Shown piece by piece: positions 50,645-55,883 of a stretch of DNA of 64,000 bases. The DNA is taken from positions 62,001-126,000 of the forward strand of contig NEVA01000002.1 of the NCBI GenBank assembly GCA_002304445.1, given 5' to 3'. Positions within the stretch are counted from its first letter, which is position 1, and the number at the start of each line of letters is the position of its first letter. The notes beneath the pieces were generated by a model, which had not been told where the DNA came from, made no database searches, and saw only the letters and a list, made by a program, of their open reading frames with translations. A program made the translations under genes and the position numbers. This DNA comes from Opitutia bacterium Tous-C4FEB (GTDB taxonomy: Bacteria; Verrucomicrobiota; Verrucomicrobiia; Opitutales; Opitutaceae).

Positions 50645-50674
50645 ATACGATATAGAGGCTTGCGCGCATCGTAT
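50645..50674. promoter_or_regulatory. AT-rich inverted repeat before the H-NS-like gene
   Basis: ATACGAT (50645-50651) and ATCGTAT (50668-50674) are perfectly inverted, 16 bases apart, in an unusually AT-rich patch. It starts 8 bases after the SDR stop and ends 21 bases before the start of the nucleoid-type protein. It could be an autoregulatory operator, a hairpin, or both; -10-like TATAGA boxes lie within it. Confidence 0.45.
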
Positions 50675-50695
50675 AGAAACGCTTTAGAAGAATTA

Positions 50696-51073
50696 ATGAT
50701 CACCGATAAAATTAAAGAACTCGAGGCGACCAAAGCTAAAGTCGCATCGTTGGAAGAATCGATCGCAAGCCAGCTGGATAAAGAGTTGTCCGAGCTGCAT
50801 ACGAAGTACGGTTTCGAGTCCGCTCAAGCGTTCATCAAAGCGGTCGCCGCGGCGACGGGCGGTCGGAAGAAAAAGCGTGGCGGCAAGGCGGTGAAATCCG
50901 AAGGCGGCAAGCGGCGCAAGCGCGCCAAAATCACCGATGAAATCCGCGCCGAACTTAAGAACCTCGCTGAGGCCGGTAAATCTGGGTCGGAGATTGCGGC
51001 GGCTCTGGGTATTTCGTTACCGAGCGTGCAGAATATCAAGAAGGCACTCGGATTGGTGAAGTCGCGGAGCTGA
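50696..51073 (+). CDS. H-NS-like coiled-coil protein with basic linker and C-terminal HTH
   Basis: A 125-residue DNA-binding protein with an unusual layout. Residues 1-36 form a coiled coil and 37-52 (KYGFESAQAFIKAVAA) resemble the dimer region of H-NS-type proteins. Residues 55-79 are a very basic linker with GGRKKKRGGK and GGKRRKRAK, suited to DNA-backbone or minor-groove contact. Residues 80-125 form a helix-turn-helix (IAAALGISLPSVQNIKKALG) in place of the H-NS DNA-binding domain. It is likely a nucleoid-associated protein or global regulator. ATG 50696 is chosen. The upstream region is AT-rich with an inverted repeat, which suggests autoregulation. A strong terminator follows. Confidence 0.78.
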   Translation: MITDKIKELEATKAKVASLEESIASQLDKELSELHTKYGFESAQAFIKAVAAATGGRKKKRGGKAVKSEGGKRRKRAKITDEIRAELKNLAEAGKSGSEIAAALGISLPSVQNIKKALGLVKSRS

Positions 51074-51183: not shown

Positions 51184-53106
51184 TCAGAGATCGGCGTGGG
51201 CGGGTTCGGCGCTCAGATTGCGCCACCGGGCGAGCACCTGCCGATGGATGTCGTTCGGAGCGAGACCGTAAGACGCGCGGAGGACGCCGTTGCTCGAACC
51301 GTGTTCAACAAATTTGTCGGGCCAACCAATCCGTTCAACTGCGGTGGGGCACTCGGCATCTTGTAACGCTTCGAGCACGGCGCTGCCGAAGCCGCCGGCG
51401 AGGGCGTGGTCTTCCATCGTCACGATGAGAGGAACGACGGTCGCTTGGCTGAGCAGGAGCGTGCGGTCGATGGGCTTGATGAAGCGCGGGTTGACCACGC
51501 CGACGGAGAGTTGCTCCTCGCGGGCCAAGCGTTCGGCCAGTGCGAGCGCGTCGGCGATCATGGGGCCGAGTGCCCAAATCATGATATTTGATCCTTCGCG
51601 CAAGACTTCGGCGTGGCCGATCGCGAGGGCGGCCGGTTGGGCTTTGATTTTAACGCCGGTGCCGGCGCCACGGGGATAACGAATAAAGCCAGGGCCTGGG
51701 AGCTGAAGGCTGGTGTGAAGCATGTCCACGAGCTCGTCCTCGTCTTTTGGCTGCATGATGGTCGCACCCGGGACGCAGCGGAGGTAGGAAATATCAAAAA
51801 GGCCGTGGTGGGTCGGGCCGTCGGCAGGTGAAAGTCCGGCGCGGTCCATGCAAAAGGTGACCGGGAGATTCTGGAGGGCTACGTCATGGATCACCTGGTC
51901 GTAGGCGCGCTGGAGAAAAGTCGAGTAGATGGCACAGACAGGGCGAAAGCCTTTGGTGGCAAGGCCGGCGGCGAAGAGTACGGCATGTTCCTCGGCGATG
52001 CCGACATCGAAGAATTGCTTCGGGACTTCTTTGGCGAGATGGATAAGGCCGGTGCCGCTGGGCATCGCGCCGGTGATGCCGATAACTTTTGGATCGGCTT
52101 TCGCAAAGCGAACGAGGGCATGACCGAAGACGTCCTGAAGGTTGGGCGGCGCGCCCGGGACGGACCTGCTTTCACCGGTGACAGGATCGAAAGAGCCAAG
52201 GCCGTGAAACTTCTCGGGCTGGGCGAGGGCGGCTTCGAGGCCACGGCCCTTTTTGGTGAGTACGTGAATGAGGACGGGCACGTCGGCGTGCCGGGCGAAT
52301 TCCAAGTTTTTTTGCAGCGCCGCAAAGTCGTGTCCATCCACCGGTCCAAGATAGCGCAGGCCGAATTTTTCAAACAGGGACGACTCGACAAAAAAGTCCT
52401 TCGTCTCGCGTTTCCACTTATGATAGACGCGATTCATGCTTTCACCGGCGGGGAAGCTCTTGAAGAAGCCTTCGATGTCGTGGTGCAGCTTGTTGTAAGT
52501 GGAATTGGTGCTGAGGCGGTTAAGGTAGGTGGCGATAGCGCCGACGTTCTTAGCGATGGACCACTCGTTGTCGTTGAGGACGACGATCAGTCGCTTCGTT
52601 GACCCGACGATATTGTTGAGCGCCTCGAGGGTGACACCGCAGGTGAAGGCCGCGTCACCGCAGATCGCCACGACATGCTCGGAGCTTCCGCGCAAATCGC
52701 GGGCGGTGGCCATGCCGAGGGCGGCGCTCAGCGCGGTGCCGGCGTGGCCGGCACCGAAGCTGTCATGGGGACTCTCGGCGCGGTAGAGGAAGCCGCTGGT
52801 GCCGCCGGATTGGCGCAGGCCACGGAAGAACGCACCTTGGCGCCCCGTGAGCAGTTTGTGCACATAACCTTGGTGGGCGACGTCGAAGACAAACTGGTCG
52901 TTGGGCGTATCAAAGACCCGGTGAAGCGCGATGCTGAGCTCGACGACGCCCAAGTTGGGACCGACGTGGCCGCCATTTTTGGCGGTGACGGTGATGATTT
53001 CATCACGAATCTCCTGCGCGAGCTGCGGGAGTTGACCGGCCGCAAGGGCTTTGACGTCGGCGGGGCCGTGAATGGTTTCGAGAAGTCGGGCGGGAGGAAC
53101 GTTCAT
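51184..53106 (-). CDS. dxs: 1-deoxy-D-xylulose-5-phosphate synthase
   Basis: A 640-residue thiamine-diphosphate enzyme that starts the MEP isoprenoid pathway from pyruvate and glyceraldehyde-3-phosphate. Seen are HVGPNLGVVELSIALH near residue 47, FDVAHQGYVHKLLTGR, the ThDP motif CGDAAFTCGVTLEALNN (GDA where most have GDG) with NDNEWSIAKNVGAI, GPVDGHDF, and the C-terminal transketolase domain with DRAGLSPADGPTHHGLFD. The deviating GDA is a small oddity. xseB lies 26 bases upstream on the same strand, a pairing common in bacteria. Confidence 0.96.
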   Translation of the reverse strand: MNVPPARLLETIHGPADVKALAAGQLPQLAQEIRDEIITVTAKNGGHVGPNLGVVELSIALHRVFDTPNDQFVFDVAHQGYVHKLLTGRQGAFFRGLRQSGGTSGFLYRAESPHDSFGAGHAGTALSAALGMATARDLRGSSEHVVAICGDAAFTCGVTLEALNNIVGSTKRLIVVLNDNEWSIAKNVGAIATYLNRLSTNSTYNKLHHDIEGFFKSFPAGESMNRVYHKWKRETKDFFVESSLFEKFGLRYLGPVDGHDFAALQKNLEFARHADVPVLIHVLTKKGRGLEAALAQPEKFHGLGSFDPVTGESRSVPGAPPNLQDVFGHALVRFAKADPKVIGITGAMPSGTGLIHLAKEVPKQFFDVGIAEEHAVLFAAGLATKGFRPVCAIYSTFLQRAYDQVIHDVALQNLPVTFCMDRAGLSPADGPTHHGLFDISYLRCVPGATIMQPKDEDELVDMLHTSLQLPGPGFIRYPRGAGTGVKIKAQPAALAIGHAEVLREGSNIMIWALGPMIADALALAERLAREEQLSVGVVNPRFIKPIDRTLLLSQATVVPLIVTMEDHALAGGFGSAVLEALQDAECPTAVERIGWPDKFVEHGSSNGVLRASYGLAPNDIHRQVLARWRNLSAEPAHADL

Positions 53107-53132: not shown

Positions 53133-53378
53133 TCAGGACTCGGCGGTGGTCTCAAACTTTGTGAACGAGACGCCGTCCTTCTGTTTTTTGAGCTGTTCGA
53201 TCTTGAGCTCCGCGTCTTTCAGCCGGGATTCACAGACCTTAAGCAGCTTGGTGCCGTGCTCAAATTTAGCTAGCAGGTCGGCCAGAGGAACATCGCCGGA
53301 TTCCATCGTCTCAACGGTCGCTTCGAGCTGTGTAAGAGCGGCCTCGAATGAGAGTTTAGATTCCTTGGTTTCCACCAA
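53133..53378 (-). CDS. xseB: Exonuclease VII small subunit
   Basis: An 81-residue helical protein that forms the multi-copy helical partner of XseA in exonuclease VII, which degrades single-stranded DNA. The family pattern is FEAALTQLEATVETMESGDVPLADLLAKFEHGTKL split over two helices, with the closing IEQLK. xseA is not in the window. It is followed by dxs, the classic xseB-dxs order. It is divergent from the PRMT-like gene. Confidence 0.93.
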   Translation of the reverse strand: MVETKESKLSFEAALTQLEATVETMESGDVPLADLLAKFEHGTKLLKVCESRLKDAELKIEQLKKQKDGVSFTKFETTAES

Positions 53379-53537: not shown

Positions 53538-54629
53538 ATGTTATTTAAATTTCTCCAGCGTTGCAGTGTCGGCCTATGCTCAGCGGGGCGGCGGGCGATA
53601 GGGCGGGGGCGGACGTGGTTGCTTGCGCGGCCAGCCTTGGCGGCATGGATTTTTCCGGCCGACGATGACTCGCCTGAGGCGCGGTTTCGGGAGTTTAACG
53701 GCTGGTATTTCGCCAATTTTCACGAGCAGGAAAAAATGTTGGCCGACCGGCCGCGGATGAATTTCTACCACGCCGCGATCGCCCGGCACATCCAGCCCGG
53801 GGACCGTGTGATCGACTTGGGGACGGGCACGGGGATATTGGCGGCGTTTGCCGCACGGCGTGGGGCGGCTCAAGTTTACGCGGTGGATCACTCGGAGATT
53901 TTGCGTCACGCGAAGACCTTGGCTGTGGAGAATGGGATTCAAAACGTGGAGTTCATCGCGTTGCACAGCTCGAAGTTGGAGACGACGGAGAAGGTCGACG
54001 TGATTTTGCACGAGCAGATGGGGGACTGCCTCTTCGACGAAGCGATGGTCGCGAATGTTTGCGACCTGCGCGACCGCTTGCTGAAGCCCGGCGGGCTGAT
54101 CTTGCCGAGCTGTTTTGATCTCTACTGCGAGCCGGTGAAATTAGACGACACCCGGCACGTGCCATTTATTTGGGAACTGGAGGTCCACGGATTCGACTAC
54201 TCGTCGCTGGGTCGGCAACGGCCGCAAGAGCCGGGTTATTATCACCTGCGGAGCTGCGACCCGAACTACGTGGAGCACTTTCTCGGCGAGCCCGAGCCGG
54301 TGCTCTCAGTGGATCTGCACACGGTGCAGGAGTCGGAGGTGCCGTTGGAGCTGAATTTCACGCGCACGGTCGTGAATGCGGGGCGGCTAGACGGCTATGC
54401 GGTATATTTTCGGGCCCGGGTGGATGCGGATCTGAGCCTGAGTTCGGGCCCGCATGATGCGAAGCGGGCTCCGCATTGGGGGTATCGGATTCTGCGCACC
54501 GACCGCGATGATTTTGCGGTGGGCGATGTGATCGAGATTCGGCTCAAGGTGGAGCGCTGGCCGGACTTGGACACATGGCGTTGGAGCCAGGTGAAGCGCT
54601 CGGCGGTCACGGGGGCCGAGGTGGGCTAA
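53538..54629 (+). CDS. PRMT-like (protein arginine methyltransferase-type) SAM methyltransferase
   Basis: A 363-residue class I methyltransferase closely resembling eukaryotic protein arginine methyltransferases. Residues 57-75 give WYFANFHEQEKMLADRPR, comparable with the YF...H.EML region of PRMT1. Motif I is VIDLGTGTGILAAFAARRGA (91-110), with post-I VYAVDHSE. The double-E loop is ILHEQMGDCLFDEAM with Glu159 and Glu168, the arginine-binding pair. LLKPGGLILP follows, then a beta-barrel, and an HW pair (313-314, PHWGYRIL) stands where PRMTs have the THW loop. A basic 40-residue N-terminus precedes it. Substrate unknown. The start ATG 53538 is the best in frame, though a later one cannot be excluded. 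Confidence 0.8.
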   Translation: MLFKFLQRCSVGLCSAGRRAIGRGRTWLLARPALAAWIFPADDDSPEARFREFNGWYFANFHEQEKMLADRPRMNFYHAAIARHIQPGDRVIDLGTGTGILAAFAARRGAAQVYAVDHSEILRHAKTLAVENGIQNVEFIALHSSKLETTEKVDVILHEQMGDCLFDEAMVANVCDLRDRLLKPGGLILPSCFDLYCEPVKLDDTRHVPFIWELEVHGFDYSSLGRQRPQEPGYYHLRSCDPNYVEHFLGEPEPVLSVDLHTVQESEVPLELNFTRTVVNAGRLDGYAVYFRARVDADLSLSSGPHDAKRAPHWGYRILRTDRDDFAVGDVIEIRLKVERWPDLDTWRWSQVKRSAVTGAEVG

Positions 54630-54630
54630 G

Positions 54631-54659
54631 GCGGTGGCTTTCAGGGCTGGGGCCACCGC
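54631..54659. terminator. Candidate bidirectional hairpin between convergent genes
   Basis: GCGGTGGC (54631-54638) and GCCACCGC (54652-54659) pair perfectly around a 13-base loop that contains the trmO stop codon. It begins right after the PRMT-like stop. No T-run follows, so terminator function is uncertain. Confidence 0.4.
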
Positions 54660-55441
54660 GCGAGAAAATCGAGTTGTGCGGCACAGTCAGGCAGCCCTTC
54701 GCGCTTTGGATCGGTCAGAAAACGCGCTGGGAAACCGGCGTCGAGGGCGGTGACGGTGACTTGGTGTCCGTTGACGGTAAAAAACGCCCGCCAGGCGCCG
54801 CAGCCGATTTCATATAAATCATTCCGACGGCGGCGGATGCGTCGGGTGCGGTGAGGTGAAGGATCGCGGGCGAGCAATTCGTGGAGGCGCGGGGAGAAAT
54901 CGATCTGCCAAGCGGCGCGCAGCCACTCGGCCTGGGTGGTGGCGAGCGGCGAAAACTGCACGGTGAACTGCGGCGGCGAAGCCATGAGCGCGTCGACGGC
55001 GTCGATCCAACCGGCGCGCTCATCGGGAAAACTGTCGTAGGCGGGGACGTAGGGTTTGAGATCGAAGACCGGTGTGCCGTCGACGAGGTCGCACTCGCCA
55101 AGAATGAGCGTGCGACCCTCGATGGCGATGAGTTGCACGGGCGTTAGGCCGATGGGATTGGGCCGGTGGGGTGAACGGGTGGCAAAAACGCCACGGCTCT
55201 GGGCGGGACCGCGGGGTGGGACGACTTGGGTGCGCCAGGTAGTGTTGCGATGGAACCACCAGACGAGCCACACCCGGGAAAAGCCGGCGAGATCGCGGAG
55301 CGCCTGCTCGTAGTTTTGGTCGGGCAGGAGTTCGAGGACATTGTGCTCGGGCAGTTGCTCCGAGGGCTGGTGCAGGGCTTGAAACTTCACCTGTTTGCCG
55401 GTGCGGATGTAGCCGATGGGCTGGAGCGTGAGTTCGGACAT
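54641..55441 (-). CDS. trmO: tRNA (N6-threonylcarbamoyladenosine-37) methyltransferase TrmO family
   Basis: A 266-residue protein of the TsaA/YaeB/TrmO family, which methylates t6A37 in some threonine tRNAs using SAM. The family core is LQPIGYIRTGKQVKFQALHQPSEQ at the N-terminus, LAGFSRVWLVWWFHRN, the signature GVFATRSPHRPNPIGLTPVQL, and DLKPYVPAYDSFPDERAGW. A C-terminal extension (about residues 180-266) carries a second conserved part seen in the E. coli protein. ATG 55441 (MSELTLQPIGYI) is chosen over an open frame further upstream. It is convergent with the PRMT-like gene. Confidence 0.92.
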   Translation of the reverse strand: MSELTLQPIGYIRTGKQVKFQALHQPSEQLPEHNVLELLPDQNYEQALRDLAGFSRVWLVWWFHRNTTWRTQVVPPRGPAQSRGVFATRSPHRPNPIGLTPVQLIAIEGRTLILGECDLVDGTPVFDLKPYVPAYDSFPDERAGWIDAVDALMASPPQFTVQFSPLATTQAEWLRAAWQIDFSPRLHELLARDPSPHRTRRIRRRRNDLYEIGCGAWRAFFTVNGHQVTVTALDAGFPARFLTDPKREGLPDCAAQLDFLARWPQP

Positions 55442-55550
55442 GCCGGGATTTTCTTGGGGCCGGGGCCGAGGGCCGTCGAGGGCGGAGTTTTGGGCGATTA
55501 TTGCCGTGATGCGGGATTGACGCAGGGGCGGGTTTGACGGGAATCGGGGG

Positions 55551-55883
55551 ATGGCTCTCACCGACATCAAAATCGAAATTCTAAAAACCGGCACCGGCGC
55601 TTCGCCAAAAAAGGGCAAGTCCGTCACGGTTCACTATACTGGCACCTTCGAGGACGGGAAAAAATTTGATAGCTCCGTCGACCGCAACGAGCCCTTCACC
55701 TTTGTGCTGGGCGCCGGTCAAGTGATCGCGGGTTGGGATCTTGGCGTCGCTACGATGAAGGTCGGCGACAAAGTCAAAATGACGCTGCCGCATCATCTGG
55801 CCTACGGGGAGCACGGCTACCCGGGTGCGATTCCGCCGCGGGCTACGCTGATTTTTGAAGTGGAACTGCTTTCGGTCGGTTGA
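55551..55883 (+). CDS. FKBP-type peptidyl-prolyl cis-trans isomerase
   Basis: A 110-residue single-domain FKBP without a signal peptide, so cytosolic. It has VHYTGTFEDGKKFDSSVDR, FTFVLGAGQVIAGWDLGVATMKVGDKV and YGEHGYPGAIPPRATLIF, with the aromatic active-site residues in place. It is short, complete and close to eukaryotic FKBP12 in length. It lies 22 bases before the S4-domain gene and probably forms an operon with it. Confidence 0.95.
   Translation: MALTDIKIEILKTGTGASPKKGKSVTVHYTGTFEDGKKFDSSVDRNEPFTFVLGAGQVIAGWDLGVATMKVGDKVKMTLPHHLAYGEHGYPGAIPPRATLIFEVELLSVG

Follow-up and report, generated by a model that had tools for sequence, protein, structure and literature searches.

The window analysed here (a 64,000 nt stretch of the Opitutia bacterium Tous-C4FEB assembly GCA_002304445.1, sitting on contig 12 of that assembly) carries a gene of the protein arginine methyltransferase (PRMT) family. 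It consists of a single open reading frame (ORF) of 363 amino acids, in which the translation contains the S-adenosylmethionine (SAM) motif VIDLGTGTGI, the double-E loop HEQMGDCLFDEAM with glutamates E159 and E168, and the segment SSGPHDAKRAPHWGY with the pair H313 and W314. Sequence, profile, fold and conservation agree, and homology of the protein to PRMTs is strongly supported. Sequence and profile matches together with the predicted model place a Rossmann SAM domain before a PRMT beta-barrel. The 3.76 Mb query assembly holds one full-length copy; two other matches were short SAM-domain stretches.

Sequence homology, predicted fold and conserved residues

With the single query sequence (phmmer), the best match among solved structures was PRMT2 (5g02, E-value 1.4e-28) over residues 62-342, and the best 60 of the 124 matched chains were PRMT or putative arginine methyltransferase entries, 8rbk being deposited as 'MGC151858 protein'. 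A 37-row profile, built from the query plus 36 of 42 relative loci, retrieved Arabidopsis PRMT10 first (1.7e-38), and the best 60 of 66 structure matches were again PRMT or putative arginine methyltransferase entries. The PRMT barrel model PF22528 scored 29.3 bits on the query against a cut-off of 27, and this match and the 62-342 span both extend beyond the SAM domain to cover the C-terminal barrel.

The AlphaFold2 model, built from the 37-row alignment, had a mean predicted local distance difference test score (pLDDT) of 81.5 and a predicted template modelling score of 0.75. The weak regions were residues 1-60 (pLDDT 51-66 in the blocks of residues 1-40, under 50 at 52-61), which span the N-terminal extension and helix X, residues 161-170 (69) within the double-E loop, and residues 221-240 (58-66), within a segment of this monomer model that stands where a dimerization arm is presumed to lie. 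The best 50 rows of the Foldseek search were all PRMTs, as were the best 50 of a structural aligner, aligned mostly over residues 48-358; families absent from these listed rows are not thereby ruled out. Overlay on PRMT1 (1or8) gave Z 27.8 and 2.8 Å over 288 residues. Trypanosoma brucei PRMT7 (4m38) ranked first by Z (28.5, 3.2 Å over 308 residues), which carries no information on product type because rows within 1 Z are tied. The PRMT relation proposed in the initial annotation was thereby borne out by both the structure-profile search and the model overlay, and a similarity to small-molecule methyltransferases only did not occur.

For conservation, 64 matching loci were collected; setting aside two with 30% identity left 62 (at least 54% identity), which gave 49 distinct orthologue rows. 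Residues M67, R73, D93, G95, G97, G99, D117, E159, M161, G162, E168, M170, H313 and W314 were invariant in 49/49 rows, and so were the SAM motif and the stretches H158-E159-Q160-M161-G162-D163, L165-F166-D167-E168 and R310-A311-P312-H313-W314. The sequence elements on which the initial annotation relied were present, and the SAM motif, both glutamates and the HW pair did not vary. It had also described their order and spacing as those of PRMT1, which agrees with the nine residues separating the two glutamates in PRMT1 and in every row here, the loops themselves reading H-E-Q rather than S-E-W and P-H-W rather than T-H-W. Five further orthologues outside the 49 retain HEQ and RAPHW, and in two of these five, from another family (L127 and L128), M161 is replaced by I (HEQIGD).

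M67 aligns to the place of PRMT1 M48, where a methionine presumably has a role in product type. Residues of PRMT2 named for SAM and arginine, i.e. R133, M127, E180, E223 and E232 (excerpt of PMC8623767), have R73, M67, D117, E159 and E168 as their alignment counterparts.

The ORF is real and under purifying selection: in eight pairwise comparisons with relatives, the ratio of nonsynonymous to synonymous substitution rates was 0.05-0.135 for residues 46-355 and 0.16-0.63 for residues 1-45. The start codon at 53538 is supported by the conservation of Met at position 1 (47/49 rows). Promoter- and terminator-like sites showed no excess over shuffled sequence.

Table 1. Position of the gene, its functional segments and the neighbouring genes in the window.
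Feature	Position	Strand	Remarks
PRMT-family gene	53538-54629	+	363 amino acids plus stop; translation, structure-chain matches, conservation
N-terminal extension, residues 1-45	53538-53672	+	Basic; low-confidence helix in the model; under weaker constraint
Place of helix X, residues 46-69	53673-53744	+	N54, G55 and F58 aligned to YFxxY of type I PRMTs
SAM-binding motif I DLGTGTG, residues 93-99	53814-53834	+	Translation, conservation
D117, place of ribose-binding acid	53886-53888	+	E in PRMT1 and PRMT2; conservation, alignment
Double-E loop HEQMGDCLFDEAM, residues 158-170	54009-54047	+	Conservation, alignment
RAPHWG, residues 310-315, THW-loop counterpart	54465-54482	+	Conservation, structure-chain match
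dxs	51184-53106	-	PF13292; housekeeping neighbour, outside the system
Exonuclease VII small subunit (xseB)	53133-53378	-	PF02609; divergent neighbour, outside the system
TrmO-like tRNA methyltransferase	54641-55627	-	PF01980; convergent neighbour, outside the system

Distribution, phylogeny and gene neighbourhood

The near-query set comprised 57 genomes, 37 of the same family and 20 from other families of the order. A full-length orthologue (at least 54% identity) was present in 20/37 same-family genomes, i.e. in 11/13 of the query's genus and 9/24 others, and in 0/20 genomes from the other families. In a sample of the class, 20/384 genomes matched at 1e-15 or better; 16 of these were orthologue-grade (E-value 3e-150 or better; 14 from the same family and two from another family, f23), and four had distant PRMTs only. 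Both f23 genomes (G492 with L127 and L134; G547 with L128 and L135) hold an HEQ-type together with an SEW-type PRMT relative. A single-protein scan of species genomes, which reaches close relatives only, returned 42 loci, all in metagenome-assembled genomes, of which 40 were assigned to Opitutus, Opitutaceae, Opitutae, Opitutia or Rariglobus and two to Verrucomicrobia. PF22528 was found in 8/288 genomes of the phylum and in 0/14 control genomes, and it missed seven profile-positive genomes (G015, G031, G137, G186, G206, G306 and G317).

Phage records gave no match at 1e-5. Plasmid records gave one match at 1e-8, a protein of 26% identity (L166) on a Tropicibacter oceani plasmid, annotated as ribosomal protein L11 methyltransferase and possibly misnamed.

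In a tree of 27 rows the orthologues (14 rows) formed one side of a branch with support 100/100 and a stem of 2.98 changes per site. Six eukaryotic PRMTs grouped at 80/83 once other bacterial rows were counted, and two other bacterial groups received 99/98 and 99/99, with deep branch order unresolved. A recent transfer from a eukaryote is not supported, the orthologues standing on their own branch with the eukaryotic rows grouped apart. An older transfer may have occurred, given a eukaryotic sample without PRMT3, CARM1, PRMT5, PRMT7 and protists, the length of the stem, a root placed at the midpoint, and the very long branch of one row (L132). Contamination of metagenome-assembled genomes is argued against by orthologues in the single-contig genomes G015, G016 and G031.

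Two other architectures were observed. L078, from another family of the phylum (G168), is a 701-amino-acid open frame that matches the PRMT barrel twice in succession, an arrangement reminiscent of PRMT7 and PRMT9. L131 (G402) combines in one open frame a PRMT-like domain (SETIGHVIFDEQ) and, as judged by eye, a GNAT acetyltransferase-like domain.

In the window the PRMT gene appears to stand alone, since xseB and dxs are on the opposite strand and the TrmO-like gene is convergent. The order dxs-xseB-gene-TrmO was seen in at least 9/42 loci, all of close relatives; the count is a lower bound, as some loci lie on short contigs. At 50660-51073 on the forward strand, a 137-amino-acid lysine-rich protein reads like a small DNA-binding protein, with no Pfam match at 1e-5.

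The remark in the initial annotation that the gene has no obvious partner describes the window well, its neighbours being housekeeping genes. Among relatives, 10/35 loci (L024, L025, L026, L028, L029, L030, L032, L034, L040 and L043) have a co-directional upstream gene of one homology group, ending 145-291 bases before the matched start. The one copy scanned (L024) is a receiver-domain protein (PF00072), and 8/10 of the upstream genes were re-found by a receiver-domain motif. An operon of the receiver-domain and PRMT genes is possible in those relatives, because the gap to the likely PRMT start codon is 78-263 bases (8 loci). The arrangement was not seen in the loci examined of the query's own genus. 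In eight loci an amidohydrolase- or deaminase-like gene, as judged by eye, lies further upstream.

Probable function, candidate substrate and alternative explanations

By homology and fold the protein belongs to the PRMT family, with a diverged pocket, and bacterial arginine methyltransferases are known in principle. We infer that it is probably an enzyme, presumably cytoplasmic, that methylates arginine guanidino groups, most likely in proteins and not in a free metabolite, with a mono-, asymmetric or symmetric dimethyl product; an assignment to type I, II or III is not justified. SAM would bind to the Rossmann domain via motif I, R73 and D117, and the guanidino group of the substrate arginine would be held between E159 and E168, beside H313-W314, where it would accept the methyl group. 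Enzymes of the PRMT fold usually act on protein arginine, and the window neighbours, which are housekeeping genes with no biosynthetic cluster, were counted for this reading. As the initial annotation suggested, the organism may thus methylate arginines in its own proteins; the annotation's further step, from a missing partner gene to a possibly broad range of substrates, is not warranted.

One concrete candidate, chosen by motif, is an RNA recognition motif (RRM) protein of the query genome located outside the window (L099, G000:C1:317101-317310). It has a long glycine/arginine-rich (GR-rich) tail of the GGGRGFGGGGGGRGFGG type, ending in RPKEEGGGRGFGGGGGGRGFGGGGGGRGFGGGGGGGGYRGDRGGGGDRGERRY. 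Such proteins are known PRMT substrates in eukaryotes: PRMT2 methylates RSF1 (excerpt of PMC8623767) and PRMT5 methylates AtGRP7 (excerpt of PMC11478431), both RRM proteins with an Arg/Gly- or Gly-rich tail. RRM proteins occurred in 26/27 family genomes searched vs 2/14 controls, and at least one tail with three or more arginine-glycine (RG) dipeptides was read in 20/26 of the family genomes having an RRM match. Of the 39 RRM matches, 30 were read and the best row per genome was used, so that the RRM proteins of some genomes are partly covered. GRGFGG-coding sites numbered 10 in the query genome vs 6 for the reversed control pattern; three of the 10 were in the RRM tail, and the other seven in frames of 24-219 residues that by eye were not gene-like. 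RGGxRGG sites numbered 49 vs 24 in the control, and of 20 read none looked like a coding tail by eye.

Several observations weigh against an ordinary protein-methylating PRMT and against this substrate. The full double-E consensus is SExMGxxLxxExM and that of the THW loop THWxQ (PMC12925635). The query loop fits ExMGxxLxxExM, with the leading S replaced by H in 49/49 rows; compared with SEWMG, the sequence HEQMGD has H in place of S and Q in place of W on the two sides of the first glutamate, again in 49/49. In the second loop HW is kept and T is replaced by P (both 49/49), and the place of Q is taken by R or another residue. The YFxxY motif of type I enzymes is absent in the gapless alignment, which gives NGxxF (N54 in 49/49, G55 in 39/49 and F58 in 48/49 rows). 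The helix X tyrosines of PRMT2 touch the second glutamate (excerpt of PMC8623767), and their counterparts in that alignment are N54 and F58. These HEQ and PHW loops and the residues at the tyrosine places indicate an altered arginine pocket, although the helix X register is uncertain because a local YFxxF lies three residues further on and the model is also poor there. At the profile level, PF22528 matched 21/37 members at 1e-3 and missed 16/37, while generic methyltransferase and PrmA models matched 37/37, and automatic annotation may therefore miss the family. None of the 25 NCBIfam models listed, of 58 matching, reached its own cut-off.

Regarding the substrate, tails with at least three RG were found in 11/13 genomes with the PRMT gene vs 7/11 without it, and the mean RG number was 4.2 vs 3.0, a difference short of significance (p 0.15; with one genome per genus p 0.58). 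From the 27 genomes this comparison left out G003 (gene, no RRM match) as well as G020 and G030, whose only PRMT is a distant one. As GR-rich tails occur with or without the gene, the link between RRM protein and PRMT rests on the motif. A DDAH-type dimethylarginine hydrolase (PF19420) was found in 1/27 family genomes, the one being without the PRMT gene.

The principal alternative is a small-molecule guanidino methyltransferase resembling SznE, with free arginine, agmatine or some other guanidine compound as its substrate, and we regard it as unlikely though worth serious attention. That bacterial arginine methyltransferases can serve metabolism follows from SznE, which supplies N-omega-methyl-L-arginine in streptozotocin biosynthesis (excerpt of PMC11705231), and from the saskemycin cluster, found by means of a 31% homologue (excerpt of PMC12637814). 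The altered flanks of the pocket described above also count for this alternative. The housekeeping neighbours in the window speak against this alternative, as do the recurrent neighbours in 35 loci, which, not annotated one by one, include no evident biosynthetic cluster, and the retention of the gene in many family genomes while its neighbours change.

A catalytically weak or dead relative with a structural role is improbable. PRMT prozymes exist in trypanosomes (PMC12925635), and the deviating pocket flanks would fit such a role. About as improbable, or slightly more so, is an exported enzyme that acts on host or prey proteins in the manner of Rv1988, a bacterial arginine methyltransferase reported to be secreted (excerpt of PMC10117894): the first 30 residues are basic and, where the model has low confidence, helical, but this arginine-rich end of the protein, on reading, lacks a long hydrophobic stretch.

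The name ribosomal protein L11 methyltransferase (PrmA), which automatic annotation may give on the strength of PF06325 (41.4 bits, cut-off 22) and which the plasmid relative bears, can practically be dismissed: the match is limited to residues 81-163 of the SAM domain when the C-terminal half is a PRMT barrel, curated prmA models gave at most 42.5 bits against cut-offs of at least 183 (TIGR00406, 33.7 vs 183.15), and a better prmA match of 149 bits, itself below cut-off, lies elsewhere in the query genome, where it should be read knowing that only 4/14 control genomes pass the cut-off and that the best match stays below it in 10/14.

Returning to an enzyme of protein arginine, a bolder version may be sketched, which we hold as speculative and rather doubtful: a bacterial branch of PRMTs whose pocket has been rebuilt (HEQ/PHW/NGxxF) might methylate the GR-rich RRM tail, as a counterpart of the eukaryotic pair of PRMT and heterogeneous nuclear ribonucleoprotein, perhaps under receiver-domain control in some species. 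The control of RNA-binding proteins by arginine methylation is regarded as largely eukaryotic. In a bacterial family with a conserved chromosomal PRMT relative and GR-tailed RRM proteins, a single enzyme and a single tail peptide suffice to ask whether bacteria apply this switch to RNA-binding proteins of their own, and the divergent pocket could reveal which residues near the two glutamates an enzyme can do without.

Comparison with known arginine methyltransferases

The opinion in the initial annotation that arginine methylation is rarely described in bacteria was fair, but it is not unheard of, as Rv1988, predicted PRMTs of Legionella and SznE illustrate. Rv1988 and the Legionella proteins are named in a review as bacterial arginine methyltransferases (excerpt of PMC10117894); they are described as secreted or as of unclear role, and they were compared by description only. 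SznE was likewise compared by description, from excerpts, as a bacterial arginine methyltransferase whose gene belongs to a biosynthetic cluster and whose substrate is free arginine. Searches of the open-access literature, some of them narrowly worded and with listings judged by title, found no paper on the HEQ/PHW bacterial group.

With the type I enzymes PRMT1, PRMT2, PRMT6 and PRMT8 and with Arabidopsis PRMT10, the query has in common the SAM motif, the double glutamates, ExMGxxLxxExM, HW and the barrel, at an identity of about 24-29%. It differs from them in having H and Q on either side of the first glutamate, P where THW has T, D where the ribose-binding acid is E, NGxxF instead of YFxxY (gapless alignment), and a long-stemmed branch of its own. 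The adenine-binding E209 of PRMT2 corresponds to a variable residue, S145. PRMT relatives from the same phylum (L065, L066 and L077; L075, L076 and L134) share the double-E and HW elements by sequence, and L065 and L075, which were both searched, match PRMT structures. These six retain SEW(L/M)G and THW and are placed on branches separate from the query group.
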